Positions 16,731 through 55,089 of a stretch of 64,000 nucleotides of DNA are shown piece by piece (position 1 is the stretch's first letter; each line of letters opens with the position of its first letter). A program made the translations under genes and the position numbers. The notes beneath the pieces were generated by a model. The model saw nothing but the letters and a program-made list of their open reading frames with translations, did not search any database and was not told the DNA's origin. This DNA comes from Methyloversatilis sp. (GTDB lineage Bacteria > Pseudomonadota > Gammaproteobacteria > Burkholderiales > Rhodocyclaceae), in assembly GCA_016791045.1 (NCBI GenBank), contig JAEUNO010000019.1, positions 263,532 through 327,531 of the forward strand. Direction: 5' to 3'.

Positions 16731-17858
16731 GTGCCCAGCCTGTTGCCCAATGTCGACCCCCAGGGGCTGCTCGAATATTCGGTCGTGTACACCGACCGCG
16801 CGCTGAACCACATGTCGCAGTCCTTCCAGGGCGTCATGAAGGACATTTCGCGTGTGCTCAAGCAGGTCTACAACGCGAAATCGGCGGTTGTCGTGCCGGG
16901 CAGCGGCACCTTCGGCATGGAAGCGGTGGCGCGCCAGTTCGCCACCGACAAGAAGGTGATGGTGATCCGCAATGGCTGGTTCAGTTTCCGCTGGACGCAG
17001 ATTTTCGACATGGGCCGCATCCCGTCCGAATCCGTCGTGCTGAAGGCGCGCCAGCCGGTGCCCGGGTCGCAGAAGGCGTTCGCGCCGCCGCCGATCGGCG
17101 AGGTGGTCGCCGCCATTCTCGAACACAAGCCCGCCGTGGTGTTTGCACCGCAGGTCGAAACGTCGGCCGGCCTGCAGCTGCCGGATGACTACCTGCGCGA
17201 GGTCGCCGCCGCGGTACGCGAGGTCGATGGCCTGTTCGTGCTCGACGCGATCGCCGCCGGCACGCTGTGGGTGGACATGGGCGCACTGGGCATCGATGTC
17301 GTCGTCAGCGCACCGCAGAAGGGCTGGAGCGGTTCGCCGTGCGCCGGCCTGGTGATGCTGGGCGAGCGCGCCCGCGCACGCATCGATTCGACCACCAGCA
17401 CCAGCTACGCCGCCGACCTGAAGAAGTGGCTGCAGATCATGGAAACCTATGAAGGCGGCGGCCATGCCTATCACGCCACGCTGCCGACCGACGGTCTGAC
17501 GCAGCTGCGCAAGGTCATGCTGGAAACCGAAAGTTTCGGGTTCGACAAGGTGAAAGCCAACCAGATCGAGCTGGGTCGCCAGATCCGCGCGCTGATGGAA
17601 GCGCGCGGCTTCGAAAGCGTTGCCGCCGAAGGTTTCAAGGCGCCGTGCGTCGTGGTCAGCTACACCAGCGATCCGGATATGCAGAACGGCAAGAAATTCA
17701 TGGCGCAGGGCCTGCAGATCGCCGCCGGCGTGCCGCTGCAGGTCGACGAACCGGCCGACTTCCGCAGCTTCCGCATCGGCCTGTTCGGTCTGGACAAGCT
17801 GCAGAACGTCGAGCGCACGGTGCAGAACTTCAAGGCGGCGCTGGACAGGATCGAGTAG
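16731..17858 (+). CDS. Class V aminotransferase (alanine-glyoxylate/serine-pyruvate type)
   Basis: A 375-residue PLP enzyme. Landmarks: VVPGSGTFGMEAVARQF binding the cofactor phosphate, VLDAIAAG with the PLP-pairing Asp, and SAPQKGWSG with the Schiff-base lysine. This subgroup contains alanine-glyoxylate and serine-pyruvate/glyoxylate aminotransferases. Its position next to the autotrophy locus could suit recycling of photorespiratory glyoxylate, but that is inference. The start is a GTG at 16731 with GGAG 6 bases upstream; the in-frame ATG-like extension to 16473 is non-coding in character. The 3' end overlaps hoxJ by 29 bases, tail to tail. Confidence 0.85.
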   Translation: MPSLLPNVDPQGLLEYSVVYTDRALNHMSQSFQGVMKDISRVLKQVYNAKSAVVVPGSGTFGMEAVARQFATDKKVMVIRNGWFSFRWTQIFDMGRIPSESVVLKARQPVPGSQKAFAPPPIGEVVAAILEHKPAVVFAPQVETSAGLQLPDDYLREVAAAVREVDGLFVLDAIAAGTLWVDMGALGIDVVVSAPQKGWSGSPCAGLVMLGERARARIDSTTSTSYAADLKKWLQIMETYEGGGHAYHATLPTDGLTQLRKVMLETESFGFDKVKANQIELGRQIRALMEARGFESVAAEGFKAPCVVVSYTSDPDMQNGKKFMAQGLQIAAGVPLQVDEPADFRSFRIGLFGLDKLQNVERTVQNFKAALDRIE

Positions 17859-19224
17859 TTTCGGCCGGGCCGGCGGTCGAGCGCGGCAGGTCGAGCACGA
17901 ATTCCGCACCGCCCTCCGGGTGGTTGCGGGCGGACAGCACACCGCCGTGCTGTTCGACGATGCCGTAACTGATCGACAGGCCGAGGCCGGTACCCTTGCC
18001 GACCGGCTTGGTCGTGAAGAAGGGCTCGAAAATGCGCGACAGGTACTCGTCGGGTATGCCCGGTCCGTTGTCGCGCAAGCGCATGCGCACCCGGTCGCCC
18101 TCGTTGGTGCAGCTCAGCGTGAGCTCGGCGACACTATCGTCCGCGCCGGCCGCATCGTAGGCGTTCTGCAGCAGATTCATCACCACCTGCTGCAACTGAC
18201 CGGCGCTGCCGGTCACCACGCAGGACTCGCGCGCCGCCCAGTGCAGCGCGACGGCCGCGCTGGTGCCCTTGTGTATCCAGTGAATGGCCCGCTCGATCAC
18301 GGCATTGAGATCGACTGCGCTGCGCCCTTCCGGATCAACGGCGGAAAAGCGCTTCAGGCCATTGACGATGTCGGCGGTGCGCTGGGCACCTTCCATCGTG
18401 CCTTCGATCAACGACGGCAGATCCTTGAGCAGATGTTCGATGCGAAGCCTGGCGCGCAGTGCGCCCAGTTCCTCGTCGGACGCTCCGGCGTGCACGGCGT
18501 CGATGTAGCTCCCCATGCGTTCGCTGTATTTCTTCAGTGCATGCACGTTGCCGAGCACGAAGCTGATCGGGTTGTTCAGCTCGTGCGCGACACCGGCCAC
18601 CAGACGGCCGAGCGACGCCATCTTTTCCGAATGCAGCAACTGCTGCTGAGCCAGCTTCAGCGCCTCGTGCGCCTCGCGCAGTTCGTGGTAGGCGCGCGTC
18701 AGTTCGGCGGTCGGCCGGCCGACCAGCACGGTGCCGGCGCGCCGGCCGTTGCGCGTGAAACGCGGCGTCAGATTGGTGTCCACCGGCACCCCGGCGCCCG
18801 CGGCGTCGCGCAGGTTCAATTCGACCGCCTCACCCCGGCGCGACGGATTGGCGTCATCGAGCACGCCGCGCATGCGGGCGCGGCTTTCGTCGTCGGCCAG
18901 CAGCGCGAACACCGGCGTACCGCGCAACGCGTCGTCGCTGCGCCCGACCAGCTCGCACAGCGCGGCGTTGGTTTCCTCGATCTCGCCGCGCTCGTTGCAC
19001 ACCAGCAGCACATCCGACATCGCCGACATGACGCTGAAGATGAACTGCTGCGACTGTTCCAGTTCGACGTTCTTCTGCTCGAGCGCGATTTCGTCGCTGA
19101 CCAGCTGCGAATACACCTCGTCCATGCGCTGGATCACGTCCAGCCAGGTGGCCTCGTCCACGCCTTCGATGTGGGCGTGGGCGAGCAGGGCTTCGGTATT
19201 GGCGGATTTCGGGCGGTCGGTCAT
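17830..19224 (-). CDS. hoxJ: Hydrogenase-regulating sensor histidine kinase HoxJ/HupT
   Basis: A 464-residue cytoplasmic kinase. A short coiled coil (residues about 35-55) leads into a PAS domain (about 58-175), then a HisKA H-box with [22 protein letters not shown], and an HATPase domain with [16 protein letters not shown] and [10 protein letters not shown]. There is no transmembrane segment. It is last in the hoxA-B-C-J series, the position of R. eutropha HoxJ, which receives the H2 signal from the HoxBC sensor through its PAS domain and phosphorylates HoxA. The assignment rests on context as much as sequence. Confidence 0.8.
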
Positions 19225-19307: not shown

Positions 19308-21434
19308 TCAGAAGCGGGCGCTCAGGGTGAGGCGCAGGCTGCGCGGCTCGACCGGATGGAAGTGGCGGTCGTCGACACCGCCCGCCGCTTCGCCGCGCAG
19401 GCGCGAGGTGTAGAAGTACTCGATGTCGTTGTCGCCGCTGTCGAACAGGTTGAATACGTCCAGCATCAGCCGCAGATCGCGGCTGAGGCGGTGGCCGACG
19501 CGCAGGTAGGCCAGCGTGGTCGACGCCGAACGCTCGGAATTGTCCTCGACCAGCGGGCGCGGGCCGACGTGCCTGAGCTGCAGGTGGCCGAACCAGCCGT
19601 TGGCCAGCGGGTTGTCTTCGGTCAGGCTCAGGCCTGCGGCGACCACGCGGTCGACGGCACCCGGCACATGGTTCCCGGCCGGGTCGTCCTCGGTGAAGCG
19701 GGCGCGCGAGGCGGCGACATCGAGGTCCAGCAGCAGCCACGGACGCACCGTCCAGCGGTTGTTCCATTCGATGCCGCTGCGCTTGCTGGCGCGGTTGGGC
19801 TCGGTTTCCCCGGCGTCGCCGACGAACAGCAGTTCCGAATCCAGCTTCAGCGTCCATACGGCAAGCGAACTCTGCAGGCCGGGCACGAACTCGGTGCGCA
19901 CACCGACTTCGCCGCCCTGGGTGCGCACCAGCGCATCGACCGGATCGGCCGGCAGCCCGCCCTTGGCGGTGACGCGCGCCGTGGTACCGCGCGCGTCGTT
20001 GCTGTGGAACCCATGGCCGTAGTTCACGAAGTACTCGGTGCGCGCCCACGGCCCGAAGATGAACGACAGCTTGGGCGAGGCGATGTGGTCGTTCGCGTCG
20101 CCGCTGTTCGCGGCGATCGAACTGGCGACGTCGAAGTCGTAGCGGTCGAGGCGCAGCCCGGCCAGGCTGCGCAGCCAGGGCGTCCATTGCACGCTGTTTT
20201 CGCCGTACAGGCCGACGCTGGTCTGGCGTACGTCGCTCTGCTGGGTCACGCCGGTGGTGCGGCGCGCGACCGTGGTGTAAAGCCCGACCGGGTTCAGGCG
20301 GTCGTGCCGCATCTGCACGCCCAGCGTGTTGGTCATCGGCCGACCGGCGAGCTGGCCATCCCAGCTGCGGCTCATCGCCATGCCGAGCACGGTGCGCTGT
20401 TCGGACTGGCGGAACTGGTCGCCGTCGGCCGGGTTGTCGAGGAAGTAGGTGAAGTTGGACCACAGGTCCAGTTCGGACTGGATGGCGTAGGCGTTGAAGC
20501 GGAAGGCGCCGTCGTCCCAGGCGCGCTGGTGGTCGACCGACAGGCTGTAGCGCTGGGTCTTGCCGCCGTCGGTCGGATCCACCGTGCCGTAGCGGCCGAT
20601 CAGGCCGGACTGCACGGCGCGCAGCGGAATCTGGTCGGTCGAGTCCCAGCGCGCGGTGTAGGCCATCGCGGTGACCGAGGTGCGGTCGGCGCCCTCGCCC
20701 AGCGTGTAGCGCAGCACGCCGTTGATGCGCCGGAAGTCTTCCGGATTGTCCCAGGGGCCGTCGCTGCGCGAGGTCTCCAGAGCGTAGAGCAGGGTGCCGG
20801 CGCCGAGCGCGTGCGAATTCATCAGCAGGCCACGCCGATGACCATCCTGGCCGATCGTCACTTCGGCGATGCCGTAGTCGAGGCGATCGACCAGCCGCAG
20901 TCGTGCCGCACCGGCCGACGCGAAGTCGCCCTCTTCGGCGTGGTACGGGCCCTTGCGGTAGTCGATGCGGCCGACCAGCTCCGGGATCAGCCAGTTCAGG
21001 TCGGTGTAACCGTGACCGTGCGCGTGCGTCGGCATGTTGGCGGGCATGCCATCTATATAGGTGGCGAAGTCGATGCCGTGGTCGAGGTTGAAGCCGCGCA
21101 GGAAGTACTGGTTCGCCTTGCCGCCGCCGCTGTGCTGCGTGACGATGACGCCGGGCACGAATTCCAGCACCTCGGCCGGTCGCAGCGTCGGCCGGTTCTC
21201 GATCAGCCGCGCGGTCACCCGGCCCTGGCTGGCGGCATCAGACGTGCCGACCGCGTTGTCGTAATGGCCCTCGATGGTCACCGCGTCGAGGTGGTGAGCC
21301 GACGGCGCCGCTTCATGCGCCAGCGCGGTGCCCCATGCCCCGATGACGGGCACGCACAGCAGCGGCAGAAATCCCTGCACGGACGCCGACGGCGCCCGCA
21401 ACGCCTTCCCGGAACAGTCTTTTTTCGCGTTCAT
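19308..21434 (-). CDS. TonB-dependent receptor, probable nickel importer
   Basis: A 708-residue outer-membrane receptor. After a signal peptide comes a plug domain (LRPAEVLEFVPGVIVTQHSG, KANQYFLRGFNLDHG, IDGMPANMPTHAHGHGYTDLN) and a 22-strand-type barrel ending in RLTLSARF with the terminal Phe required for assembly. The plug is His-rich (HAHGHG), in line with a metal ligand. A perfect NikR operator directly precedes the start, and nikR is the next gene upstream. These point to energy-dependent nickel uptake for the hydrogenase. The ATG at 21434 is preferred; a longer frame to 21488 would translate through the operator. No clear ribosome site is visible. Confidence 0.82.
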   Translation of the reverse strand: MNAKKDCSGKALRAPSASVQGFLPLLCVPVIGAWGTALAHEAAPSAHHLDAVTIEGHYDNAVGTSDAASQGRVTARLIENRPTLRPAEVLEFVPGVIVTQHSGGGKANQYFLRGFNLDHGIDFATYIDGMPANMPTHAHGHGYTDLNWLIPELVGRIDYRKGPYHAEEGDFASAGAARLRLVDRLDYGIAEVTIGQDGHRRGLLMNSHALGAGTLLYALETSRSDGPWDNPEDFRRINGVLRYTLGEGADRTSVTAMAYTARWDSTDQIPLRAVQSGLIGRYGTVDPTDGGKTQRYSLSVDHQRAWDDGAFRFNAYAIQSELDLWSNFTYFLDNPADGDQFRQSEQRTVLGMAMSRSWDGQLAGRPMTNTLGVQMRHDRLNPVGLYTTVARRTTGVTQQSDVRQTSVGLYGENSVQWTPWLRSLAGLRLDRYDFDVASSIAANSGDANDHIASPKLSFIFGPWARTEYFVNYGHGFHSNDARGTTARVTAKGGLPADPVDALVRTQGGEVGVRTEFVPGLQSSLAVWTLKLDSELLFVGDAGETEPNRASKRSGIEWNNRWTVRPWLLLDLDVAASRARFTEDDPAGNHVPGAVDRVVAAGLSLTEDNPLANGWFGHLQLRHVGPRPLVEDNSERSASTTLAYLRVGHRLSRDLRLMLDVFNLFDSGDNDIEYFYTSRLRGEAAGGVDDRHFHPVEPRSLRLTLSARF

Positions 21435-21440
21435 GGTTTT

Positions 21441-21468
21441 GTATGAAGAATTTGAACATTCTTCATAC
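21441..21468 (-). promoter_or_regulatory. NikR operator GTATGA-N16-TCATAC
   Basis: GTATGA at 21441-21446 and TCATAC at 21463-21468 are separated by exactly 16 bases, the E. coli NikR consensus without mismatch. The arms extend to perfect 10-bp inverted copies (GTATGAAGAA / TTCTTCATAC). The site ends 7 bases before the TonB-receptor ATG, so bound Ni-NikR would cover the transcription or translation start and repress the receptor when nickel is plentiful. Confidence 0.92.
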
Positions 21469-21583
21469 GCGAGAAACGTGCCAGTCACAGCATCACGCCG
21501 GGCAAGCCCTTCGGCCTGACCATCGGTACAGAGGTGGTCAGTGCGCTGCCATTCCGGTCGATGCGGCGGCAGCCGCGCTGACG

Positions 21584-22084
21584 TCAGGTGCTGGGCTTGA
21601 TGTGCACGTGGCCGTGGCCGCCGCGTTCGTGCCGCCGTGTATAGCTATGCCCGCCCGGCCCCGTGTGGTGGTGGCCTGCATCCAGCTCGACGCTGATCAG
21701 GTTGATCTTGCCGTGATGCACGCCGCGCTCGGCGCACACCGCGTCGGCGAACTGCCGCACCGCGGCGATCTCGCCCTTCAGGATCACGGTTTCGAGACAG
21801 TGGTCGTGGTCGAGATGGGCGTGCATCGACGACACCGTGAGGTCGTGGTGCGCGTGCTGCAGGCTGATGATGCGCTCGGCCAGATCGCGTTCGTGGTGGT
21901 TGAACACGTACGACAGACACGCCACGCAGTGCGTCGCGCCACCCGTCTGCTGCGCCGTGCGGTCCAGTTCGGCGCGGAACAGGTCGCGCACCGCCTCGGA
22001 GCGGTTGCCGTAGCCGCGCTGCGTAATCCAGTCATCGAACTGGGCGGCCAGCTGGTCGTCGAGGGAAATGGTGAAGCGCTGCAT
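21584..22084 (-). CDS. nikR: Nickel-responsive regulator NikR
   Basis: A 166-residue protein. Residues 1-45 are a ribbon-helix-helix domain (MQRFTISLDDQLAAQFDDW, then YGNRSEAVRDLFR). The ACT-like metal domain carries the high-affinity nickel ligands in MHAHLDHDHCLE (two His and a Cys in the E. coli pattern) and an upstream His. An extra C-terminal tail is His-rich (GHHHTGPGGHS, HERGGHGHVHIKP), making the protein longer than the usual 130-150 residues. The ATG at 22084 has GGAG at 5 bases. It lies 13 bases after hoxC and is probably transcribed with it. Confidence 0.93.
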   Translation of the reverse strand: MQRFTISLDDQLAAQFDDWITQRGYGNRSEAVRDLFRAELDRTAQQTGGATHCVACLSYVFNHHERDLAERIISLQHAHHDLTVSSMHAHLDHDHCLETVILKGEIAAVRQFADAVCAERGVHHGKINLISVELDAGHHHTGPGGHSYTRRHERGGHGHVHIKPST

Positions 22085-22097
22085 GCAGACTCCGGAG

Positions 22098-23552
22098 TCA
22101 GTGCACGGTGCACACCATGCAGGGATCAAAGGATCGCACGATATGCTGCACCGCCACCGGCGTGGCTTCTCCTTCACGCACCGGGGCGCCTTCGAGCGCC
22201 GATTCCAGCGCGCCGGGGCGGCCGGCGGCGTCGCGCGGCGAGAAGTTCCAGGTGGTGGGCGCGACGATCTGGTAGTTGGCGATGCGGCCGTCGCGCACCG
22301 AAATCCAGTGGCCCAGGCTGCCGCGTGCCGCTTCGCCGAGTCCGGCGCCGCTGCCCTCGTCCGGCAGCCGGCCGGGCGTGCAGAAGGGCTCGCCCGGCCG
22401 CACGGCGCGCAGCCAGTCTTCCATCATGAGCACGACGCGCACGAGTTCGAGCAGGCGGGCGACGACGCGGGTGTAGACCGTGCCGCCGTAACGGCCGACC
22501 AGATCGACGATGAGCGGATGGCCGCTCGCCAGTTGACGCGCGATGGCGCCGGTTTCGACCACCTCGCCGGCCAGCCGCGGCGCCTTGTTCCAGGTGTAGG
22601 CGCCAGGCTTGTCCGGTTCCGGCCGCGTGACGCCGCTGCGTGGGTGCTGCGGGCCGCCGGCGTCACTCAGCCAGGCGTGGGTGGCGTCTTCGCGGATGGC
22701 GGCCGGGTCGAGCGGCGACAGCGCGCCGGCGTGCCAGACGCCGGCCCCGAGTGCGGCGCCGCCGTCCGGCTGCGGGTAGGCGCCGTAGCTCAGGAAGCGG
22801 CCGGGCCCGGCGCCGAGTGTGGCCAGCCCCGCGTCCCGCGCGACGGTCAGGAAGAAGCGCAGGTCGCCGTTCAGCGGATCGGCGCCGTCGTACCACGCAT
22901 CGAGCGCCGCCTCCGAATCGAGTGCGGCCACCTGTTCCAGCGGCGCGGCATAGGTATGGGTTTCGAGGAAGCGGCGGAACTCCCGCACGCGCGCCAGCAG
23001 GCGCACCTTTTCTGCCGCGTCGATGGCGCGCGTCGAACCGCCGGGGTCGATGCTCTGCGTGTGCGGCCACTTGCCGGCCAGTGTGCCGAGCAATGTGAAC
23101 CAGCGCTGGCGCGCAGCGATAGCTGCGCGCACCTGCTCGCCGGTCTGCGGCGTGAAGCGGCGTACCGCCTCGGCATGCCAGGGCCGGCTGGCATACACCG
23201 GGCGCACGAAATCCGGCATGAAGAACAGATAGAAGTGGGTCAGGTGATCGGCCAGGTTTTCGGTGGCAAGGACCAAATTGGTCACGTGCTGGCCGTTGGC
23301 CGGCATCGTGATGCCACCCAGCGCCGCCAGCGCACGCGCGGCGGCCACCGACTGCGACACCGAACAGATGCCGCAGATGCGCGGCACATACACCAGCGCG
23401 TCATGCGGCTCGCGCCCGCGCAGGATCTGCTCGAAGCCGCGGTACATCGGTGCGTTCACGTGCGCCGACGCGACGCGCCCGTCGGCGACGTCCAGCGTCA
23501 CTTCGAGATCGCCCTCGACGCGGTTGAAGGGGCCGACGAGGAGACGGGTCAT
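22098..23552 (-). CDS. hoxC: Regulatory (H2-sensing) hydrogenase large subunit HoxC/HupV
   Basis: A 484-residue [NiFe] large subunit. The L1 motif RICGICS and the L2 motif DPCMVCTVH supply the four active-site cysteines. The protein stops exactly at the final His, so it has no C-terminal peptide for a maturation protease; this is the mark of the regulatory (group 2b) hydrogenases HoxBC/HupUV. Such sensors are cytoplasmic, slow and O2-insensitive, and they control the kinase HoxJ. It is unusually separated from its partner hoxB by about 0.9 kb holding an opposite-strand gene. Confidence 0.93.
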   Translation of the reverse strand: MTRLLVGPFNRVEGDLEVTLDVADGRVASAHVNAPMYRGFEQILRGREPHDALVYVPRICGICSVSQSVAAARALAALGGITMPANGQHVTNLVLATENLADHLTHFYLFFMPDFVRPVYASRPWHAEAVRRFTPQTGEQVRAAIAARQRWFTLLGTLAGKWPHTQSIDPGGSTRAIDAAEKVRLLARVREFRRFLETHTYAAPLEQVAALDSEAALDAWYDGADPLNGDLRFFLTVARDAGLATLGAGPGRFLSYGAYPQPDGGAALGAGVWHAGALSPLDPAAIREDATHAWLSDAGGPQHPRSGVTRPEPDKPGAYTWNKAPRLAGEVVETGAIARQLASGHPLIVDLVGRYGGTVYTRVVARLLELVRVVLMMEDWLRAVRPGEPFCTPGRLPDEGSGAGLGEAARGSLGHWISVRDGRIANYQIVAPTTWNFSPRDAAGRPGALESALEGAPVREGEATPVAVQHIVRSFDPCMVCTVH

Positions 23553-23815
23553 GAGAACGCCCTGAAGTCAGTGCGGGTACTGTCGACACGTTTTACACCG
23601 CGACACCGGCCTGCATCGATAGCTGCCGGCGGACACCCGCCTTGTCGCCCTGCATTCGCCGTCGGCTGTGGCATCCAGCGCAGGCGCGCCGATGCTGGCG
23701 CGATCCCTGCTTCGGAAGACGTTGCTGTTACCAGCGTGCGTTCGCGCACGTTCATGACATGTCCGTCCGCGACGGATCGGACGTGTGTCCAATGCCCGAG
23801 GAAGGAAAGAACGAG

Positions 23816-24469
23816 ATGGCCATTCACCCGACGAGCACCCCGTTTTATCGCCGTGCCGCGCTGACGGCGCTGATCGGCGGTCTGGCGCTTGCGCCGGCTG
23901 CCCATGCGGCGAACTACACATTCGACGTGCTGTATGAAGGTGCTGGCGTGGCCGCTCTTGCCGCCGGCAGCGATGATCCGGAAGGCACGGTGCTCTACGA
24001 CGGCGACACCTTCATCTGGACCCTGTCGATCGTCGACGACCGTTACTGGGAAGTGCTCGAATCGGGCGACTTCTTTCCGCTGATGGCCTTCGGCGTCAGT
24101 GAAGCCGGCGACCGCACCGTGGACTACATGCTGACGCTCTACAACGACACGGCCGAAGTATTCAGCGATACCGCGGCAGATGTGGTGAATTCGTCCGTCC
24201 ATCTCGGTACCAACACCATCTCGCTCGACGCCGGCCTCAAGTTCGACCGCATGCGTATCGAACTGACGCTGATCAGTGCGACGGAAGACGGCGACCCCTC
24301 CGTCGCGATCACGACCTCGCCCTCCGGGCTGCTGCCCATCTTCGGCGCACCGGAACAGAACACCTTCTATCCGGGCATCGTGCTGGCCCCGGTGCCGGAA
24401 CCGCAACCCTGGGCGCTTGCCATTGCGGGCCTGATCACGCTGGGCGCTCTGAGCCGCCGCCGACGCTGA
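23816..24469 (+). CDS. PEP-CTERM exported protein of unknown function
   Basis: A 217-residue protein with a signal peptide (RRAALTALIGGLALAPAAHA), a strand-rich body with several acidic patches (YDGDTFIWTLSIVDDRYW), and a C-terminal sorting signal VPEPQPWALAIAGLITLGALSRRRR (read in parts): PEP motif, hydrophobic helix, Arg cluster. GAGGAAGGAAAG precedes the ATG. It is on the plus strand between hoxC and hoxB, which are both on the minus strand, and so interrupts a pair of genes normally adjacent. No catalytic motif was recognised. Confidence 0.75.
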   Translation: MAIHPTSTPFYRRAALTALIGGLALAPAAHAANYTFDVLYEGAGVAALAAGSDDPEGTVLYDGDTFIWTLSIVDDRYWEVLESGDFFPLMAFGVSEAGDRTVDYMLTLYNDTAEVFSDTAADVVNSSVHLGTNTISLDAGLKFDRMRIELTLISATEDGDPSVAITTSPSGLLPIFGAPEQNTFYPGIVLAPVPEPQPWALAIAGLITLGALSRRRR

Positions 24470-24489: not shown

Positions 24490-25497
24490 TCATTTCAGCC
24501 TCGTCCGTCTCGCCAACGGCGGCACGACGACATGGTCCGACACCGCATTCACCTTCACCCGCTTCGGCGTAGCCGATTTGGACAGTGACGCCAGCGCGAC
24601 GAACCAGGCCTTGGGCATGTCGGTCGGCAGACCGATCGGGATGCCGGCCAGCTTGGGCGTCGCGTGGAAGGGGTGGCCCGGTTCCTGGAAGCCGGGTTCG
24701 GTGCAGCTGATGCAGGCATAGCCGCCCCGGGTGCAGGAGCCTTCGCCGTTCCACGGCCGGGTGTTGCAGTCGGCGTGCGCCTGCGTGCCCTTGCAGCCCA
24801 TGTTTTCCATCATGCAGCCGAGGTCCGAGGGCTTCTCGGCGCTGGCCTTGAATTCGTAGTACTCGTTGCGCGTGCAGCCGTGGTGCACCAGCTGGTCGGC
24901 GTAGAAGCGTGGCCGGCCCAGCGTGTCGAGGTCGGTTTCGGTGAAGCTGTCGGCGGCCAGCGCCATCAGCGTGTCGAGCACCCAGCTCGGATGGGTCGGG
25001 CAGCCGGCGATATTGATCACCGGCAGGCCGCCGTGTGCGCGGAAACCGGCCCCGAGCAGGCCGCCGCGCACGTCGTCCTCGTACTGCAGGCCGCAGGCGT
25101 CGGTCGGGTTGTCGCCGCCGGCGGTGACGCCGCCCCAGGCGGCGCAACTGCCGATGGCGATCACGTGGCGCGCCTTCGCCGCGAGCTTGCGCACCCACTC
25201 GACCATCGGCACACCGGTGCCGGCCATGACATGGAAGCGACCGGTGCCGTTCGGCCCGCGCAGCAGCGAACCTTCGACGCACAGCGCATCCAGCGGCAGA
25301 TCGCCGTCGAGGATGCGGCCGAGCAGCGCGGTCACTTCGCTGCCGCTGTCCAGCGACAGCGACGGATGCCACAGCAGATCGATGCCCGCGTCGCGCAGCT
25401 GGCCGTGGAAATCGTCAGTGTCGGCGCACAGCAGCGACATGCTGCAACCACCGCAGCCGCCGGACTGCAACCACAGGACGGTGAAGGGCGCGCTCAT
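24490..25497 (-). CDS. hoxB: Regulatory (H2-sensing) hydrogenase small subunit HoxB/HupU
   Basis: A 335-residue [NiFe] small subunit with three Fe-S cluster motifs: QSGGCGGCSMS, IGSCAAWGG, INIAGCPTHP, the distal CTRNEYYE and MGCKG region and CISCTEPGF. There is no twin-arginine signal peptide, so the complex stays in the cytoplasm as in HoxB/HupU sensors. The proximal-cluster positions that are extra Cys in HoxK are Gly here (GGCGGC, AAWGG). It lies between hoxA and the interrupting PEP-CTERM gene, with 200 bp of repeats upstream. Confidence 0.93.
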   Translation of the reverse strand: MSAPFTVLWLQSGGCGGCSMSLLCADTDDFHGQLRDAGIDLLWHPSLSLDSGSEVTALLGRILDGDLPLDALCVEGSLLRGPNGTGRFHVMAGTGVPMVEWVRKLAAKARHVIAIGSCAAWGGVTAGGDNPTDACGLQYEDDVRGGLLGAGFRAHGGLPVINIAGCPTHPSWVLDTLMALAADSFTETDLDTLGRPRFYADQLVHHGCTRNEYYEFKASAEKPSDLGCMMENMGCKGTQAHADCNTRPWNGEGSCTRGGYACISCTEPGFQEPGHPFHATPKLAGIPIGLPTDMPKAWFVALASLSKSATPKRVKVNAVSDHVVVPPLARRTRLK

Positions 25498-25580: not shown

Positions 25581-25699
25581 CGGCCGGTTCGGTGGGCGCG
25601 AAGCTGTGCTTCGCGAAACCCCCACCTTGCCCCACGGCCGGGTTTGCACACCCGGCCGGTTCGGTGGGCGCGAAGCTGTGCTTCGCGAAACCCCCACCT
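25581..25699. repeat. Two 47-bp direct repeats, each a strong hairpin
   Basis: Bases 25581-25627 and 25653-25699 are identical 47-mers. Each contains CGCGAAGC-TGT-GCTTCGCG, a perfect 8-bp stem with 3-nt loop, inside outer GGTGGG/CCCACC arms. The second copy reaches into the end of hoxA at 25699; both lie in the hoxA-hoxB gap. They may act as RNA-stability or attenuation structures between the response regulator and the sensor genes, or simply be a REP-like element. Confidence 0.85.
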
Positions 25700-27147
25700 C
25701 ACCCCTCAAGACCGAAGCGGACCATCTTGCCTCTGAGGCCGACGCGGGACAGGCCCAGTTCCTTGGCGGCGCGCGTCTTGTTCCAGCGGTGGCGGAGCAG
25801 GGTTTCGCGCAGCACCATGGCTTCGATCGCGTCCAGCCGCTCGGCCAGCGTGCCGCTGGCCGGCAGCGGGGTAGCGCTGGCGGTGGCGGTCAGACCGGCC
25901 TGACCGTGCAGCACGCGCAGCGACAGCGACTGCGCCTCGATGCGTTCGCTGTCGCTCAACGCGAGCGCGCGCGCCAATTCGTTGCGCAGTTCGCGGATGT
26001 TGCCGGGCCATGGGTAGCCCATCAGACAGGCCATCGCCTGATCGCTCAGCGAGGCGCCGGGGCGGCCCAGTTCGATGCCCACCTCATCGACCACGCGGCG
26101 GGCGATCGGCTCGATATCGCCGACCCGCTCGCGCAAGGGCGGCACGGTGAAGGTGGCGCCGGCGATGCGGTAATACAGATCCTCGCGGAACAGCCCTTCG
26201 CGCACCCGCTGTTCGAGCTCTCGGTGGGTGGCGGCGATCACGCGCACGTCCACCTGCAGCGCACGGGTGCCGCCGACCGGACGCACCTCGCCTTCCTGCA
26301 GCACGCGCAGCAGGCGCACCTGGAAGGCGGGCGAAGTTTCGCCGATTTCATCGAGGAACACGGTGCCGCCGTCGGCCCGCTGAAAGAGGCCGATGTGGTC
26401 TTCGTAGGCGCCGGTGAAGGCACCGCGCTTGTGGCCGAACAGTTCGGATTCGAGCAGGGTTTCCGGTATCGCCGCGCAATTCTCGACGACGAAGGCGCCA
26501 TTGGCACGCGGGCTGGCGTAGTGGATGGCGCGCGCCAGCAGTTCCTTGCCGGTGCCGGATTCGCCGAGCACCAGCACCGACAGGTCGTAGCGGGCGACGC
26601 GGGCCGCCATTTCGCACACTGAATCAAGCGGGCTGCCCGGCGCGCGCTCGATGCGGTCGAAGCCGAAGGTCTTGCGCGCGCGCTCCAGCTTGTGCGCGGC
26701 GCGCTGGCGCAGCACCGGCGTGGCGGTGCGCAGTTCGAGATCGAGGCGGGCGGTTTCCTGCTGCAGCGTCTGCGCCTCGGCGGCGTTGCGCACGGTGGCC
26801 AGCAGGTGGTCGGGCACCCAGGGCTTCAGGATGTACTGATAGATGCCGGCGTCGTTGATGCCGGCGATGATGTCTTCCGAATCGGTGTAGCCGGAAATGA
26901 CGATGCGCACGACGTCGGGCCAGCGCTCGCGCACCTCCTTCAGGAAGAGCACGCCGGTCAGGCCGGGCATGCGCTGGTCGCACAGGATGACGTTCACCTC
27001 GTGCCGCTCCAGCTGCTGGCGCGCGTCGTCGGCGCCGCTGGCGGTGAGCACGGTGAAGTCCTCCTCCAGCGTGCGGCGCATCGCGTCCTGCGAGCGGACC
27101 TCGTCGTCGACCACCAGCACGGTGGGCACGCGCAGGCTGGCGTTCAT
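25699..27147 (-). CDS. hoxA: NtrC-family response regulator HoxA/HupR
   Basis: A 482-residue sigma-54 activator. The receiver domain (1-125) has VVDDE, the phospho-acceptor Asp in VILCDQRMPG and a Lys in ILKPW. The AAA+ domain carries Walker A GESGTGKE, the sigma-54 contact loop GAFTGA and Walker B GGTVFLDEIGE, followed by a C-terminal Fis-type HTH (RAAKELGLSRVGLRGKM). HoxA/HupR switches on hydrogenase genes in response to H2 via HoxJ and HoxBC. In Ralstonia the unphosphorylated form is the active one; whether that holds here is unknown. Its start overlaps the hypX stop by 4 bases. Confidence 0.92.
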   Translation of the reverse strand: MNASLRVPTVLVVDDEVRSQDAMRRTLEEDFTVLTASGADDARQQLERHEVNVILCDQRMPGLTGVLFLKEVRERWPDVVRIVISGYTDSEDIIAGINDAGIYQYILKPWVPDHLLATVRNAAEAQTLQQETARLDLELRTATPVLRQRAAHKLERARKTFGFDRIERAPGSPLDSVCEMAARVARYDLSVLVLGESGTGKELLARAIHYASPRANGAFVVENCAAIPETLLESELFGHKRGAFTGAYEDHIGLFQRADGGTVFLDEIGETSPAFQVRLLRVLQEGEVRPVGGTRALQVDVRVIAATHRELEQRVREGLFREDLYYRIAGATFTVPPLRERVGDIEPIARRVVDEVGIELGRPGASLSDQAMACLMGYPWPGNIRELRNELARALALSDSERIEAQSLSLRVLHGQAGLTATASATPLPASGTLAERLDAIEAMVLRETLLRHRWNKTRAAKELGLSRVGLRGKMVRFGLEG

Positions 27148-31101: not shown

Positions 31102-31340
31102 GCGGACGCTCCGTCTGCTGCGGCGGCTTCGGCCATCTCGCCGAACAGCGCCAGCGTGCGCTCGGCCTCTTCCGGGTCGATCATGCCGATGGCGTGGCCG
31201 ACATGGATGATGACGTAGTCGCCGACCTGCGCCTCGGGCACCAGTTCGATCGACACGTCCTTGCGGATGCCGCCGAGGTTCACCACTGCGCGTTCGTCGG
31301 CGCGCAGTTCGACCAGTCTGGCGGGGATGGCTAGACACAT
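31098..31340 (-). CDS. hypC: HypC chaperone
   Basis: An 80-residue OB-fold chaperone starting [12 protein letters not shown], where Cys2 binds the iron carrier. It contains the usual GDYVIIHVGHAIGMIDPEEAE core. It partners HypD and carries the Fe(CN)2CO unit to the hydrogenase large subunit. It overlaps the end of hypF by 10 bases. HoxL, about 6 kb upstream in the same operon, is a second HypC-type protein. Confidence 0.94.
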   Translation of the reverse strand: MCLAIPARLVELRADERAVVNLGGIRKDVSIELVPEAQVGDYVIIHVGHAIGMIDPEEAERTLALFGEMAEAAAADGASA

Positions 31341-32476
31341 GACAGGGACTCCGTGAGCACGCCGGGTGCGAGGTGGATCTGCTGCGCGACCGCCCAGGCC
31401 TGGCCGAGCGCCAGACCGGCGTCGCCACAGGAGGTGGCCTGCGGACGCAGCACGCGCAGGCCGCGGCGCTGCAGCCGCAGCGTGACGCGACGCGTGAGCA
31501 GCGCATTCATGAAACAGCCGCCGCCGAGGCAGACGGTATCGACCTGAGTGTCCTGCGCGGCGGCGATCGCCCACTGCGCGAGGCCGTCGGCCAGCATCAG
31601 GTGGAACCAGGCGGCCGCTTCGTCGCATCGATCTTCGCCGTCCGGCCAGTCGAGCAGCCGGGCGAGCAGCGGACGCAGATCGAGCATGCTGTCGCCCGCC
31701 ACCTCGACGACGCTGTCCAGCGTCGGTTCGCCGTGCGCGGCAAACCAGCGCTTGGCGGCCGATTCGAGCGCGATGGCGGCTTCGGCCTCGTGCGACTGAC
31801 GCACGCTGACGCCGAGCGCGCCGGCGGCGGCGTCGAACCAGCGGCCGGTGCTGGTGGTGGGCGGGCTGTTCAGGCCGGTATCGAGCATGCGGGCGACGGT
31901 GCGCGCGGCCTGCGCGCCGACTGTTGCGGTGTAGCGCGTCTCGATGTCGGCGCCGCGACCCAGCGTCTGCATCGCCGCGGCGGCCATGCGCCAAGGCTCG
32001 CGTGCGGCCACGTCGCCGCCGGCCAGGCGCAGCGGCCACAGGTGGCCGAGCCGGCGCCAGTCGCCGGGGGCGACCCACAGCAGTTCGCCACCCCAGGCCA
32101 CGCCGTCGGTGCCGAGGCCGACGCCGTCGAGCGCCAGCCCGATCACCGGTTCGGTCAGGCCGTGTTCGGCCATCACCGCGGCGATGTGCGCGTGGTGATG
32201 CTGCACGCCGATGGCCGGCACGCCCAGCCGGTCGGCCAGCGCAACGGCCCGCTGCGTGCTGAAGAAATCCGGATGCAGATCATGTGCGATCGCTGCGACC
32301 GGCGAGATCGCCTGCGCGAGCAGCGTGTCCAGCGAACGGTCGAGCGCCACACAGGCCTGCGGGTCGCCGAGGTCGCCGTGCATCGGCGACCAGACGGCAC
32401 GGCCATCCTCGAACAGGCAGGCGGCGTTCTTCAGCCAGGCACCGGCCGCCAGCACGGTGGGGAGCCGGGGGCTCAT
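31331..32476 (-). CDS. hypF: HypF, short form (Kae1-like domain only)
   Basis: A 381-residue protein against about 750 for full HypF. It holds only the C-terminal carbamoyl-transfer/Kae1-like domain: [14 protein letters not shown] with the metal-binding His, [17 protein letters not shown], and [10 protein letters not shown]. The acylphosphatase, zinc-finger and YrdC domains are absent. R. eutropha HypF1 is similarly shortened. It would carbamoylate the HypE thiol, but the carbamoyl-adenylate must be supplied by another protein or a second HypF. The start overlaps hypB by 4 bases, and no frame remnant of the missing domains is visible upstream. Confidence 0.9.
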
Positions 32477-33432
32477 GACGCGATGCTCCGCACGATGCCG
32501 GCCCGCAGGCTGGCCACGGCGTCGGCCTTCAGTCGCGATTCGATCCACGCCAGCCAGTCACCCATGCCTTCGCCGGTGGTGGCCGACACCCGGATCACCT
32601 GGATGTCCGGATTGACGCGGCGCGCGAAGGCGATGCAGCGCTCGATGTCGAAGTTCAGGTAGGGCAGCAGGTCGATCTTGTTCACCAGCATCAGCGAGCT
32701 GGCGGCGAACATGTCCGGGTATTTGAGCGGCTTGTCCTCGCCTTCGGTCACCGACAGGATGGCCACCTTGGCCGCCTCGCCCAGATCCCACATCGCCGGG
32801 CACACGAGGTTGCCGACGTTCTCGATGAACAGCAGGCTGCGCTCCTCACCGTGATCGTGCCGATGCAGGCGGGCGAAGGCTTCGGCCACCATCGGTGCGT
32901 CGAGGTGACAGCCCTTGCCGGTGTTCACCTGTAGCGCCGGCGCGCCGGTTGCACGGATGCGGTCGGCGTCGAACGAGGTCTGCTGGTCGCCCTCGATCAC
33001 CGCCACCGGCAGGCCCGGCGCGCGCGCCTTCAGCGCCTCGATGGTCGCGCACAGCAGCGTGGTCTTGCCGGAGCCCGGGCTGGACACGAAGTTCAACGCG
33101 GTCACGGCGTACGCCGCGAACTGCGCGCGGTTCTGCGCCGCCACGCGGTCGTTCTCGCCGAGGATGTCGGTTTCGAGCCTGATCGCGCGCGCCTGGCTCA
33201 TGCCGGGCACCGACACCTTCGCCGCACCGGCGCCGAAATGCAGGTCGCCGCTGGTCGGGTCCACCGCGACGTGCGAGGCCCCCGCATGCGCCGGTTCCGC
33301 CCGGCGGATCGCCGGCGCACCGGACTTCGCCCGCCGCGCCGCAGGTGAATAGGGGCTGGGCGGATGGGCGTGCCCGTGCCCTTCCATCGTCACCTGGCTG
33401 CCGTCACCGGCACATCCGCACACTACGCACAT
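32473..33432 (-). CDS. hypB: HypB nickel-insertion GTPase
   Basis: A 319-residue GTPase. The N-terminal MCVVCGCAG forms the high-affinity nickel motif, followed by a short His-containing linker (HGHAHPP) of roughly 90 residues. The G-domain has [18 protein letters not shown], a metal-site CH pair in TGKGCHLDA, and [10 protein letters not shown]. HypB with HypA loads nickel into the hydrogenase after the iron ligands are in place. The start overlaps nothing upstream; a REP-type repeat fills the gap to hypA. Confidence 0.94.
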
Positions 33433-39415: not shown

Positions 39416-40039
39416 TCAGATGCGCGACGCGAACATGAACAGGCCGACGACGCCGAGCCCGGCCGCCTGCACGCGCCACACCCAGGCCGGCACGCGCGCC
39501 AGCGCAGCGCCGGCGCCCAGACCGATGGCGTGCAGCAGCGCCGAGCCGAGCATGAAGCCGGCGGCGTAGGTCGCGAACGACGTACCCGACGACCACTCGG
39601 CGCCGTGCGCGATGCCGTGCAGCGCACCGGCCGCGGCGACCAGCGCGAGCCCGCCGACCAGCGGCAGTTGCCGGCGCGCCAGCAGCAGCGCACCGAACAG
39701 TGCGACGCTGAGCGCGACACCGGCTTCGATGTACGCACCCGCGGCGCCGGCACCGGTCTGCACGCCGATGAAGGCTCCGGCCAGCAGCGCAAGCAGGAAG
39801 AACGCCGGGCCGGCGAGGCGTCGGGTGCCCTGCAGCACGGCGGCCGACCAGAGGCCGACGGCGATCATCGCCAGCAGGTGATCGACGCCGGCGAAGGGAT
39901 GCGCCAGACCGGCGGCCAGACCCTGTGCGCCGTGACCTTCATGCGCGTGGGCAACGCCGGCCGCCAGCGTCAGGACGGCCGCGACGCCGACGCGCCGAAC
40001 CATGGACGTGGCCGGAAAAAAGGATGGGGTCGTATTCAT
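39416..40039 (-). CDS. hupE: HupE/UreJ nickel permease
   Basis: A 207-residue membrane protein with a signal-like N-terminus (GVAHAHEGHG after cleavage) and six helices. The family motif HPFAGVDHLLAMIAVGLW is present, and HGIAHGAEW adds a second His site. HupE is a nickel diffusion facilitator that feeds hydrogenase or urease. AGGAGGAATCA precedes the ATG. With the NikR-controlled TonB receptor it would complete outer- and inner-membrane nickel import. Confidence 0.9.
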   Translation of the reverse strand: MNTTPSFFPATSMVRRVGVAAVLTLAAGVAHAHEGHGAQGLAAGLAHPFAGVDHLLAMIAVGLWSAAVLQGTRRLAGPAFFLLALLAGAFIGVQTGAGAAGAYIEAGVALSVALFGALLLARRQLPLVGGLALVAAAGALHGIAHGAEWSSGTSFATYAAGFMLGSALLHAIGLGAGAALARVPAWVWRVQAAGLGVVGLFMFASRI

Positions 40040-40075: not shown

Positions 40076-41932
40076 TCAGCGCACCTTCACCGTGGTCAGT
40101 TCGCGGCCGTCCTCGCTCATCACGTGCGTCGAGCAGGCGAGGCAGGGATCGAAGGAATGCAGCGTGCGCAGGATCTCGACCGGCTGTTCCGGATTGGCCA
40201 TCGGCGTGTTCATCAGGCTGGCTTCGAAGGCGCCGATCTGCCCCTTGGTGTCGCGCGGGCTGCCGTTCCAGGTGGTCGGCACGACGCACTGGTAGTTCTC
40301 GATGCGACCATCCTTGATGCGGATCCAGTGACCGAGCATGCCGCGCGGCGCGGCGACGGTGCCGACGCCCTTCGCCTCCTTCGGCCAGGTCTTCGGGTCC
40401 CACTTCTCGACGTTTGCGGTGCTGGTGTCGCCGGCCTTGATGTTGCCGATCAGCTGCCTGTAGTCGTCCATCATCATTTCGGCGGCGTACTGGCTTTCCA
40501 GTGCGCGCGCCAGCGTGCGGCCGATGGTGGTGGGCAGCAGCTGCTTGGCGCTGTACTGCGTTTCAGGCAGGCCGAGCGCCTTCGGGATGCCGCTGTTGAT
40601 GGCGGCGGCCGAGCTTTCGATCTGTTCCTTCACACGCTGGCACCACTTGTTGCCCTTGAGCGCGTGCGCATAGCCGAGGATGTAGCGCGACAGCGGGCCG
40701 ACCTCGACCGCGTGGCCGCGCCAGCGCGGCGACTTGATCCACGAGTACTTGGCGCTTTCGTCGATTTCCTCGATGTTCGTGCGGGTGCCCTTCGTGTTGG
40801 CACCGAGCTCGTAATTCGGCTCGGTCACGCCGTCCCACGGGTGCAGGCCCTTGCTTTCGTCGGCGTACTTGTACCAGCTGTGATTGACGAATTCCTGCAC
40901 CTGCTCGGGGTCGCGCGGATCGATTTCGTGGATGTCGTCCCAGTTGCCGTCGAGGATGACGCCGCCCGGCAGCTGGTGCGTGCTGTGGTCGTACGGCACC
41001 TTCTCGTAGGTGCCGTAATCGGCCACGTTGGTCGCCGACAGGCCGCCGCCGTACAGCCAGCCGGCATTCTTGTAGATCGTACCGATGGCCAGAACGTCGG
41101 GGATGTAGACGTTGTTGTTGAACTCGATCATTTCCTTGATGCGCGCTTCGACGAAATTCAGCCGCTCCATGTTGATCGGCGCACCGGCGGCGCCATCACC
41201 GTCGATGTTGATCGCGCACGGCACACCGCCGACCAGGTAGTTCGGGTGCGGGTTCTTGCCGCCGAAGATGGTGTGAACCTTGACCCATTCCTTCTGCAGG
41301 TCGAGCGCTTCGAGGTAGTGGGTGACCGCCATCAGGTTGGCTTCCGGCGGCAGCACATAGGCCTTGCTGCCCCAGTAGCCATTCATGAAGGGTCCGAGCT
41401 GGCCGCTTTCGACGAACTTCTTCAGCCGGTTCTGGATGTCGCGGAAATAGCCGGGCGAGGACATCGGGTGCGACGGCGACACCAGATGCTGCAGTTCGCT
41501 GGTCTGCTTCGGGTCGGCCTTCAGTGCCGACACGACGTCCACCCAGTCGAGCGCGTGCAGGTGATAGAAATGCACCGCGTGGTCGTGCACCTGGAGCGTC
41601 TTCGCCATCATTTCGCGGATCAGGTGCGCGTTCAGCGGAATCCTGATGCCCAGCGCATCCTCCACCGCGCGCACCGAGGTGAGCGCGTGACAGCCGGTAC
41701 ACACGCCGCAGATGCGTTCGACGAAGGCCCAGGCGTCGCGCGGATCGCGACCCTTCAGGATCACCTCCAGACCGCGCCACATGGTGCCGGTCGACACCGC
41801 GTTGCGGATGATGTTGTTTTCATCGACATTCACTTCGCAGCGCATGTGGCCTTCGATGCGCGTGACCGGGTCGACGACGATGCGCCGGCCCGAGTTGTCC
41901 ATTTTGAAACCCTGCGTTTCGTAAGCACCCAT
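40076..41932 (-). CDS. hoxG: Membrane-bound [NiFe] hydrogenase large subunit HoxG
   Basis: A 618-residue large subunit. L1 is [22 protein letters not shown] (read in parts) and L2 is DPCLACSTH; these four cysteines hold the Ni-Fe centre. After the His, 15 more residues ([15 protein letters not shown]) form the extension removed by HoxM. It oxidises H2 on the periplasmic side, exported together with HoxK by Tat. It is second in the operon, 50 bp after hoxK. Confidence 0.96.
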
Positions 41933-41982: not shown

Positions 41983-43068
41983 TCAGTGGTCAGCCGTGCT
42001 GGCGGGGGTATCGTTCTTGTGCGAGGCGCGCTTGATCGCCGATACCGCGGCGTGCGCCACCGCAGCCGCACCGACCACGCCGGCGGCCGTCGCGCCGACC
42101 TGGTCGGCGTTCGCCTCGATGCCGAACTGGTGGATGTCGGTCAGGCGGTCGTAGAACGAACCCTTGTCCCAGAAGCCGTCTTCCGAACAGCCGATGCAGC
42201 CGTGGCCGGCCTTGATCGGGAAGCTGGTGCCCTCGTTCCACTGCACGGTGGAACAGGCGTTGTAGGTGGTCGGGCCCTTGCAGCCGACCTTGTAGAGGCA
42301 GTAACCCTTGCGCGCAGACTCATCGTCCCAGGCCTCGACGAACTGGCCGGCGTCGAAGTGCGGGCGGCGGTAGCACTTGTCGTGGATGCGCTGGCTGTAG
42401 AACATCTTCGGCCGACCCTGGCGGTCCAGCTCCGGAATGCGGTCGAAGGTGAGCATGTAGGTGATGACGCCGGTCATCACCTCGGCGATCGGCGGGCAGC
42501 CCGGCACCTTGATGATGGGCTTGTCGAAAATGACCTTGTGCACCGGCGTGGCCTGCGTGGGGTTCGGCTTGGCCGCCTGCACGCAGCCCCAGCTCGCGCA
42601 GCTGCCCCAGCTGATGATGGCCTTGGCGTCCTTGGCGACATGCTTCAACTGGTCGATGAAGGGCTTGCCGCCGATGATGCAGCTCATGCCGTCCTGGTTC
42701 AGCGGCGGGTTGCCCTCGACCGCCAGGATGTAGTTGCCCTTGTACTTCGTCATGATCTCTTCGAGGATCGCTTCGGCCTGGTGCCCTGCGGCGGCCATCA
42801 GCGTGTCGTCGTAGTCGAGCGAAATCATCGACAGCACCACATCCTTCGCCAGCGGGTGGGCCGAGCGGATGAAGGATTCGGAACAGCAGGTGCATTCCAG
42901 CCCGTGCAGCCACAGCACCGGCGTGCGCGGCTTGGTTTCCATCGCGTGCGCGATCTGCGGCACGAAAGCCGGGCCAAGCCCGAGCGACGTGGCGGTCAGC
43001 GAGCAGTACTTGAGAAAGCTGCGACGCGAAATGCCCTGCCGGCGCATCACCTCGTAGAAGGTTTCCAT
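41983..43068 (-). CDS. hoxK: O2-tolerant hydrogenase small subunit HoxK
   Basis: A 361-residue small subunit with a Tat signal (SRRSFLK, cleaved near AHA-MET at residue 42/43). The proximal cluster is of the six-cysteine type: LECTCCSES places Cys at mature positions 17, 19 and 20, and [12 protein letters not shown] at 115 and 120, counting from Met43. The two extra cysteines (19, 120) build the 4Fe-3S cluster that gives O2 tolerance in group 1d enzymes. A C-terminal hydrophobic anchor ([19 protein letters not shown]) follows. It is the first gene of the operon. Confidence 0.96.
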
Positions 43069-43172: not shown

Positions 43173-43213
43173 TTTTGCGCTGCAGCAAAATAGTTATTCA
43201 GATCAAGACCTTG
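43173..43213. promoter_or_regulatory. Inverted repeat and IHF-like site upstream of hoxK
   Basis: TTTTGC-GCTGCA-GCAAAA (43173-43190) is an 18-bp inverted repeat just upstream of the -24 element. GATCAAGACCTTG (43201-43213) matches the IHF consensus WATCAAN4TTR with one mismatch. Both sit where an activator loop would need bending. Identity of the bound proteins is inferred. Confidence 0.35.
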
Positions 43214-54773: not shown

Positions 54774-55089
54774 GCGGACGCTCCTTCTGGACAGTGGGGG
54801 ATGTGCAGCACCGCGTGTTGCAGTGCATCAACCGTGCCAGAGGGAAAATCCTTATGAATCAATGGGCGGGTGTGTGACATTTGCCCGCTTGCGGTGCGTT
54901 GCGCACTGCAACAGAGCGTCTCCCGATCGGGAGTGTGCCGTCATCGGAGAGCACCGGGTACGTTCACGGCTCATCAGACATGTCCTATACCGGCTGTCAC
55001 TTTGGTTCGAGAGTCCGCTTCCCTCGTGGAGTCTGGACTGATCGGAGAAGCCTGATATCTGGCGCCTCCGGGCGCCGGCAGAAGTACGC
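54774..55089. other. Intergenic region with a 14-bp palindrome
   Basis: These 316 bases hold no convincing gene. CTCCCGATCGGGAG (54920-54933) is a perfect 14-bp palindrome, and GTGCG-TTG-CGCAC (54894-54906) is a second inverted repeat 14 bases before it. Both are about 120-160 bases upstream of the acetamidase start and are candidates for operators. Confidence 0.4.

Follow-up and report, generated by a model that had tools for sequence, protein, structure and literature searches.

A TonB-dependent receptor behind a NikR operator in a hydrogenase locus of Methyloversatilis sp.: a predicted route of nickel supply

A stretch of 64,000 nucleotides from Methyloversatilis sp. (assembly GCA_016791045.1, contig JAEUNO010000019.1, positions 263,532 to 327,531; hereafter the window) was analysed computationally with regard to a TonB-dependent receptor gene (19308-21434, minus strand), a member of the nickel/cobalt receptor family and a predicted nickel receptor, which lies within a hydrogenase locus. 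On the minus strand the order was a hoxA-like gene, hoxB, hoxC, nikR, an operator, the receptor and a hoxJ-like kinase gene, the hox names in the window being assigned from gene order and domains. The hyp and hup genes occupy 29 to 43 kb, and about 24 kb span the receptor, the regulator, the operator and the presumed nickel-using enzyme. An earlier reading of this DNA, made from the sequence only, had placed nikR next to the receptor and the pair between hoxC and hoxJ. Gene order and domain searches agreed with this placement: nikR, for a nickel-responsive repressor (21584-22084, minus; PF08753, NF002815), is flanked by hoxC, the large subunit of the regulatory hydrogenase (22098-23552, minus; PF00374), and the receptor is followed by the hoxJ-like PAS histidine kinase (17830-19224, minus; PAS, HisKA, HATPase_c).

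The operator, GTATGA-N16-TCATAC within a perfect 11-bp inverted repeat, was found exactly as the sequence-only reading had claimed, at 21441-21468. It reads GTATGAAGAAT-TTGAAC-ATTCTTCATAC, a perfect 28-bp palindrome with 11-bp arms and a 6-nt loop, and its hexamers have the E. coli-type NikR operator form, as at nikA. The gap to the receptor ATG at 21434 was 6 bases (21435-21440) and not the 7 counted earlier. With the full 11-bp arms and up to three mismatches, the window contained this single match and none of 100 shuffles gave any; the exact hexamer-N16-hexamer form was the sole one in the own genome, with 0.024 expected from base composition. Hexamers alone, at up to three mismatches, gave two sites in the window versus 6.2 expected, and because these loose matches are not above expectation the significance of the operator is limited to its exactness and length. 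Short near-matches are thus common, as a chance palindrome with coincidental neighbours would suppose, but the shuffles, the conserved footprint and the association statistics described below leave this explanation a negligible probability.

A wider NikR regulon in the own genome was also considered and rejected. The single N16 site with one mismatch (contig C24) overlaps the start of an open reading frame (ORF) whose product, judged by eye, looks like an RND membrane-fusion protein. At up to two mismatches, the own genome had 10 N16 sites, at the level of the control (13), and 20 N15 sites, above the control (9). Before hupS, no NikR site was found with N16 to three mismatches or N15 to two. 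Separately, a NikR-like N15 site with two mismatches is located just past the 3' end of hoxJ (17494-17520), where 0.48 such sites would be expected over the whole window; the congeners G303, G307 and G308 gave similar matches.

The protein claimed earlier as a TonB-dependent receptor with a HAHGHG motif was recognised as such, matching PF07715 (Plug, 58.0 bits) and PF00593 (TonB_dep_Rec, 78.2 bits) over the curated cut-offs and carrying HAHGHG at residues 137-142. Its AlphaFold model had the TonB-receptor fold with a mean predicted local distance difference test value of 87.4, and Foldseek with this model retrieved solved TonB receptors, only generic ones among the 50 matches listed. Two Methyloversatilis metagenome-assembled genomes carry related receptors (L186, 93%, and L187, 87% identical). 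NikR scored 204 bits against NCBIfam NF002815 (cut-off 83) and 162 against TIGR02793, below the cut-off of 175, and it comprises a ribbon-helix-helix domain (PF01402) and the C-terminal nickel domain PF08753. Residues H77, H88, H90 and C96, the E. coli-type NikR nickel ligands (a site of three His and one Cys), were present, as well as R3, T5 and S7; the best match in the PDB was E. coli NikR 1q5v (130 residues aligned, E value 1.8e-38). The window NikR would be expected to bind nickel and to act as a repressor.

Conservation of the operator was evaluated in 13 Methyloversatilis genomes, own genome included, 12 of which have the receptor. In 9 of the 11 congener loci with a receptor, an operator was found within two mismatches with N15 or N16: seven have N16 (exact in G300, G301, G302, G303 and G308, one mismatch in G309, two in G307) and two have N15 (G311 exact, G305 two mismatches). 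The operator of G310 is weak (three mismatches) and that of G304 has decayed (four mismatches), no NikR gene being found in G304, unlike all other receptor-bearing genomes of the genus. The gene hoxC precedes nikR and the receptor in the 11 congener loci, except that in G304 it directly precedes the receptor alone, on the same contig. Across the 12 aligned upstream regions pairwise identity was higher in the operator arms (left 0.781, right 0.813) than in the centre (0.414) or upstream (0.465). Perfect 11-bp arms around a 6-nt loop directly before the ATG could also form a hairpin in the RNA and work there, not as a NikR operator. On the other hand, it is the NikR hexamers, spaced by N15 or N16, whose letters are conserved, only the left arm is altered in G307 and G309, and the sites follow nikR linkage across genera, so that a function in RNA is very improbable. 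Besides, a further NikR homologue, only distantly related (29% identical), is encoded elsewhere in the genome of G310 (L185, 9294-9707).

The association of receptor and NikR was then determined in a sample of 300 genomes of the order (E values up to 1e-15 for NikR and 1e-80 for the receptor). NikR was present in 64 genomes, the receptor in 55 and both in 34; that is, NikR occurred in 34 of 55 receptor genomes versus 30 of 245 without receptor (Fisher p about 1e-13; overlap counted by hand from two lists). From this search, 60 nikR places were examined with wide flanks, and the order hoxC-nikR-hoxJ, not always as direct neighbours, was observed in eight. The same gene pair had been proposed for a search in other hox loci, and indeed the receptor follows hoxJ in six of those eight relatives. 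In these six (genomes G111, G218, G048, G071, G092 and G278) a NicO permease separates the two genes. Additionally, Methylibium sp. Root1272 showed hoxA, hoxB, hoxC and hoxJ matches together with nikR and receptor.

For the operator scan, 149 receptor rows were reduced to 143 by dropping four duplicates and two loci with less than 200 bases upstream; start codons were set by a simple rule that may have misplaced some of them. With the 11 loci of the genus left aside, an N15 site within one mismatch was present before 19 of 44 nikR-linked receptors, whereas no other spacing between N10 and N22 gave sites at more than two of the 44. By comparison, 5 of 88 unlinked receptors, a set that includes one of the two receptors in congener G311, had such an N15 site (p 4e-7); two of these five are in genomes with NikR elsewhere, the other three being outside the NikR search. 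The reversed-pattern control at one mismatch gave 0/44 at N15 and 4/44 at N17, the latter stemming, we think, from overlap of the reversed pattern with the real motif. The N16 spacing of the window is a minority form in the order, common to most congeners and to the site of plasmid pHCG3 described below.

Cobalamin riboswitches were searched with Rfam at 40 loci in all and were detected directly before nine unlinked receptors. A scan for the B12 box with one mismatch gave the same nine of 88 unlinked receptors and none of the 44 nikR-linked ones. One of the nine (L183) is the second receptor of G311, 50% identical to the window receptor and with a gene for a periplasmic binding protein upstream; another (L154, genome G218) lies beside cobalamin synthesis genes. 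Residues H139, G140 and G142 were invariant across 59 aligned receptors, riboswitch-linked L205 and L211 among them, and the receptor L101 of genome G056, which has its riboswitch in L130, carries HAHGQG. HAHGHG had been offered as a hint of nickel; as a nickel signature it was ruled out, since the motif is found also in receptors under cobalamin riboswitches. Because other members sit under such riboswitches, the family is called nickel/cobalt, and HxHGxG is, on the alignment, common to its nikR-linked and riboswitch-linked members. In a FastTree phylogeny of 144 receptors the nikR/operator-linked (27 changes) and the riboswitch-linked (3 changes) members were clustered, although not as single clades.

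These data bear on the possibility that the window receptor imports cobalt or a corrinoid and is limited by NikR only since nickel and cobalt enter together. Receptors of the same family directly under cobalamin riboswitches, the paralogue of G311 included, and the one within the cobalamin synthesis cluster of G218 would fit such a role. However, no Rfam riboswitch was found at gathering score at the window receptor (1.5 kb flanks), the B12 box is lacking before all nikR-linked receptors scanned, and nickel permease and hydrogenase genes occur as neighbours; cobalt import was therefore considered improbable, with nickel as the likely substrate.

The presumed nickel user is the catalytic [NiFe]-hydrogenase, with hupL for the large subunit (40076-41932, minus; full-length PF00374 over cut-off in the genome search; NF007550 828 bits, under its cut-off of 1101) and hupS for the small subunit (41983-43068, minus; TIGR00391 over cut-off). 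Adjoining hupL is hupE (39416-40039, minus; PF04955, 144.6 bits), likely an inner-membrane nickel permease. The genomes with a full-length catalytic hydrogenase, 11 of the 13 in the genus, are also those with NikR and with HupE scoring over its cut-off, while the receptor is present in 12 and urease alpha in all 13; the nickel route looks tied to hydrogenase because of this difference. No NicO permease was found in the 13 Methyloversatilis genomes, and the genus may use HupE in its place, HupE being the probable permease partner of the receptor.

A receptor of general use, serving urease as much as hydrogenase and merely sited in the hox locus, overlaps with a supply to hydrogenase and differs from it only on exclusiveness. 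The presence of urease in every congener would be in accordance with general use, as would the occurrence in other genera of the nikR-receptor pair without a hox match in the stretch examined, plasmids included. Conversely, the congener G306 (listed as 100% complete) possesses urease with neither NikR nor receptor found and with hydrogenase and HupE matches below cut-off, and hoxC keeps its place ahead of nikR and the receptor in the congener loci. General use is thus unlikely, albeit with an appreciable probability left to it. In genome G191 (L147), a receptor of the same family and a 5' ureB small RNA are some 7.5 kb apart, which hints at urease use elsewhere.

The sequence-based prediction of NikR control and of a nickel role tied to hydrogenase was supported by the footprint in the genus, the association across the order, the NicO neighbours and the co-occurrence with hydrogenase. 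Very probably, the window encodes a nickel receptor under NikR control whose nickel goes to hydrogenase, be it to this enzyme alone or to urease as well. The receptor would carry nickel, probably in chelated form, across the outer membrane to the periplasm; HupE of the hup operon would move it to the cytoplasm, and HypA/HypB would load it into [NiFe]-hydrogenases, which may thus use the imported metal. In a nickel-replete cell, NikR would bind nickel and occupy the 28-bp operator over the likely transcription start of the receptor gene, shutting it off. Several observations weigh against this interpretation. G304 (a draft, 93% complete) keeps the receptor with no catalytic hydrogenase found; G310 carries NikR, yet has no better site than the one with three mismatches; no site within two mismatches precedes 17 of the 44 nikR-linked receptors; the congeners are related, so that the pattern of presence and absence rests on about two losses; and the family also has members under cobalamin riboswitches, so that the metal is not fixed by sequence alone. 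With the natural absences in G306 and G304 and the riboswitch-linked paralogue in G311, the locus offers a clean test case.

The sequence-only reading had implied that a receptor wired to hydrogenase is rare. This kind has been predicted before, including at a hydrogenase locus (pHCG3). Passages of PMC3400609 place Bll6948, Daro_3944, RPA_4757, pHCG3_081 and Daro_1684 together in a single nickel/cobalt cluster, and passages of PMC7142613, citing Rodionov 2006, mark Daro_3944 and Bll6948 (nickel) and Daro_1684 (cobalt) with 'Pr', taken as predicted. PMC11247825 terms several of these receptors known nickel transporters and PMC4284471, citing Rodionov 2006, describes nickel-regulated outer-membrane transporter genes in Proteobacteria. 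That the window receptor adds to the already predicted kind (Daro_3944, Bll6948, pHCG3_081) is well supported. The receptor of pHCG3 (Afipia carboxidovorans) belongs to the same family, 47.4% identical over 91% of the query (tblastn), and is presumably pHCG3_081, as assumed from the plasmid. There, nikR adjoins the receptor divergently at the end of the hyp cluster, with an N16 site of one mismatch between them, whereas in the window the two genes share a strand, flanked by hoxC and hoxJ, and a sigma-54-like element precedes the operator.

Dechloromonas denitrificans and relatives have nikR and a receptor of the same family in a hox locus, as in the window, but in the order hoxC-nikR-hoxJ-NicO-receptor, with the receptor behind NicO and not directly after nikR. 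The classical hox locus (hoxBCJ-hoxN) on plasmid pHG1 of Cupriavidus necator H16 has a receptor of the same family (48.9% identical) some 4.4 kb past hoxN; unlike in the window, no nikR is listed in that stretch (the gene table being incomplete) and no N15 or N16 operator was found within two mismatches. The system of E. coli NikR and nikA has the same GTATGA-N16-TCATAC form, the target there being an ABC importer and here an outer-membrane receptor. Helicobacter pylori FrpB4 (and FecA3) and H. mustelae NikH are likewise TonB-dependent nickel receptors, likened here by description only. FrpB4 is, in passages of PMC3856676, repressed by NikR with nickel and described as serving urease. In the literature found, experimental proof of nickel passage across the outer membrane comes mainly from Helicobacter. 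A search on Methyloversatilis and hydrogenase (titles and abstract openings; few subscription journals covered) gave no paper about this receptor.

The putative sigma-54-like element before the operator, TGGCACG-N4-TCGCG (21468-21483, minus), has as its last base the first base of the operator. It matches 10 of 12 consensus positions, with GG and GC present and a -12 box of TCGC and not TTGC. Sites at 10/12 or better numbered 11 in the GC-rich window versus 6.8 expected, and the stricter TGGCACGN4TYGC matched once in the window, at this element, versus 0.27 expected. Because the score alone is not unusual, the argument is carried by place and conservation. The element is present at 10/12 in the window, G300, G301, G302, G303, G308 and G311, and with one further change in G304 (TGGCATG-N4-TCGC) and G305 (TGGCACA); nine of the 12 genomes thus retain it, and it is absent in G307, G309 and G310. 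Its pairwise identity in the 12-sequence alignment was 0.726. Among the nine element-keeping genomes, identity was 0.575 upstream, 0.891 in the element, 0.901 in the left arm, 0.451 in the centre and 0.839 in the right arm, figures that are biased by the choice of genomes for keeping the element. G304 retained the element while its operator decayed. About 100 bp upstream of hupS, a related element, CTGGCCCG-N4-TTGT, was detected in 10 of 11 genomes compared, and the eleventh (G309) has CTGGCTCA-N4-TTGC. No sigma-70 promoter was found in 21300-21700 by a simple scan.

From the -12 position, transcription of the receptor gene would start near 21457, inside the operator. Passages of PMC10073562 describe HoxA as an activator of hydrogenase genes and sigma-54 as a requirement of the two hydrogenase promoters of C. 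necator. In the window, hoxB, the small subunit of the regulatory hydrogenase (24490-25497, minus; PF01058, PF14720), and the hoxA-like sigma-54-type response regulator (25699-27147, minus; Response_reg, Sigma54_activat, HTH_8) are located upstream of hoxC. The promoter of the receptor could tentatively be viewed, at somewhat less than an even chance, as a two-input gate, a sigma-54 promoter switched on by the H2-sensing chain of HoxB/C, HoxJ and HoxA and with its start under the NikR operator; the nickel receptor would then be made only with H2 present and cytoplasmic nickel low. The element at the operator is the new point with respect to earlier predictions and suggests control by H2 (HoxA) as well as by nickel (NikR); if so, H2 sensing and metal supply would be joined at one promoter. 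Against such a gate, no hoxJ match was found near the receptor in seven congeners, that is, in the locus stretch of G300, G301, G302, G304, G305, G310 and G311, the rest of these genomes not having been searched. A literature search on NikR, HoxA, hydrogenase and sigma54 (few subscription journals covered) gave no paper with both NikR and HoxA.

Other features of the locus were also recorded. Among the sigma-54-like matches in the window, the highest score, 11/12, belongs to TGGCACGGTTGATGCA at 54824-54839 (minus), about 50 bases ahead of a gene of the formamidase/acetamidase family (53286-54773). Before hupS, at about 43190-43210 (minus), an FNR-like palindrome, TTGATCTGnATCAA, is present in several congeners, the copy of the window being imperfect. 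The hypF gene (31331-32548, minus) is a short form in which only positions 391-740 of the 741 of the HypF model were matched, with a score under the cut-off. Between hoxB and hoxC, the other strand holds an ORF (23642-24469, plus) that by eye has a PEP-CTERM-like C-terminal tail; a Pfam search of its part 23711-24469 gave no match. It has matches 84-90% identical in G303, G307, G308 and G309 and none in the other congener loci compared, the match in G303 being in two pieces, the shorter one 55% identical. In G301, G303 and G309 (L173, L176 and L178), hoxC is separated from nikR by an ORF of about 470 residues, Fic-like by eye.

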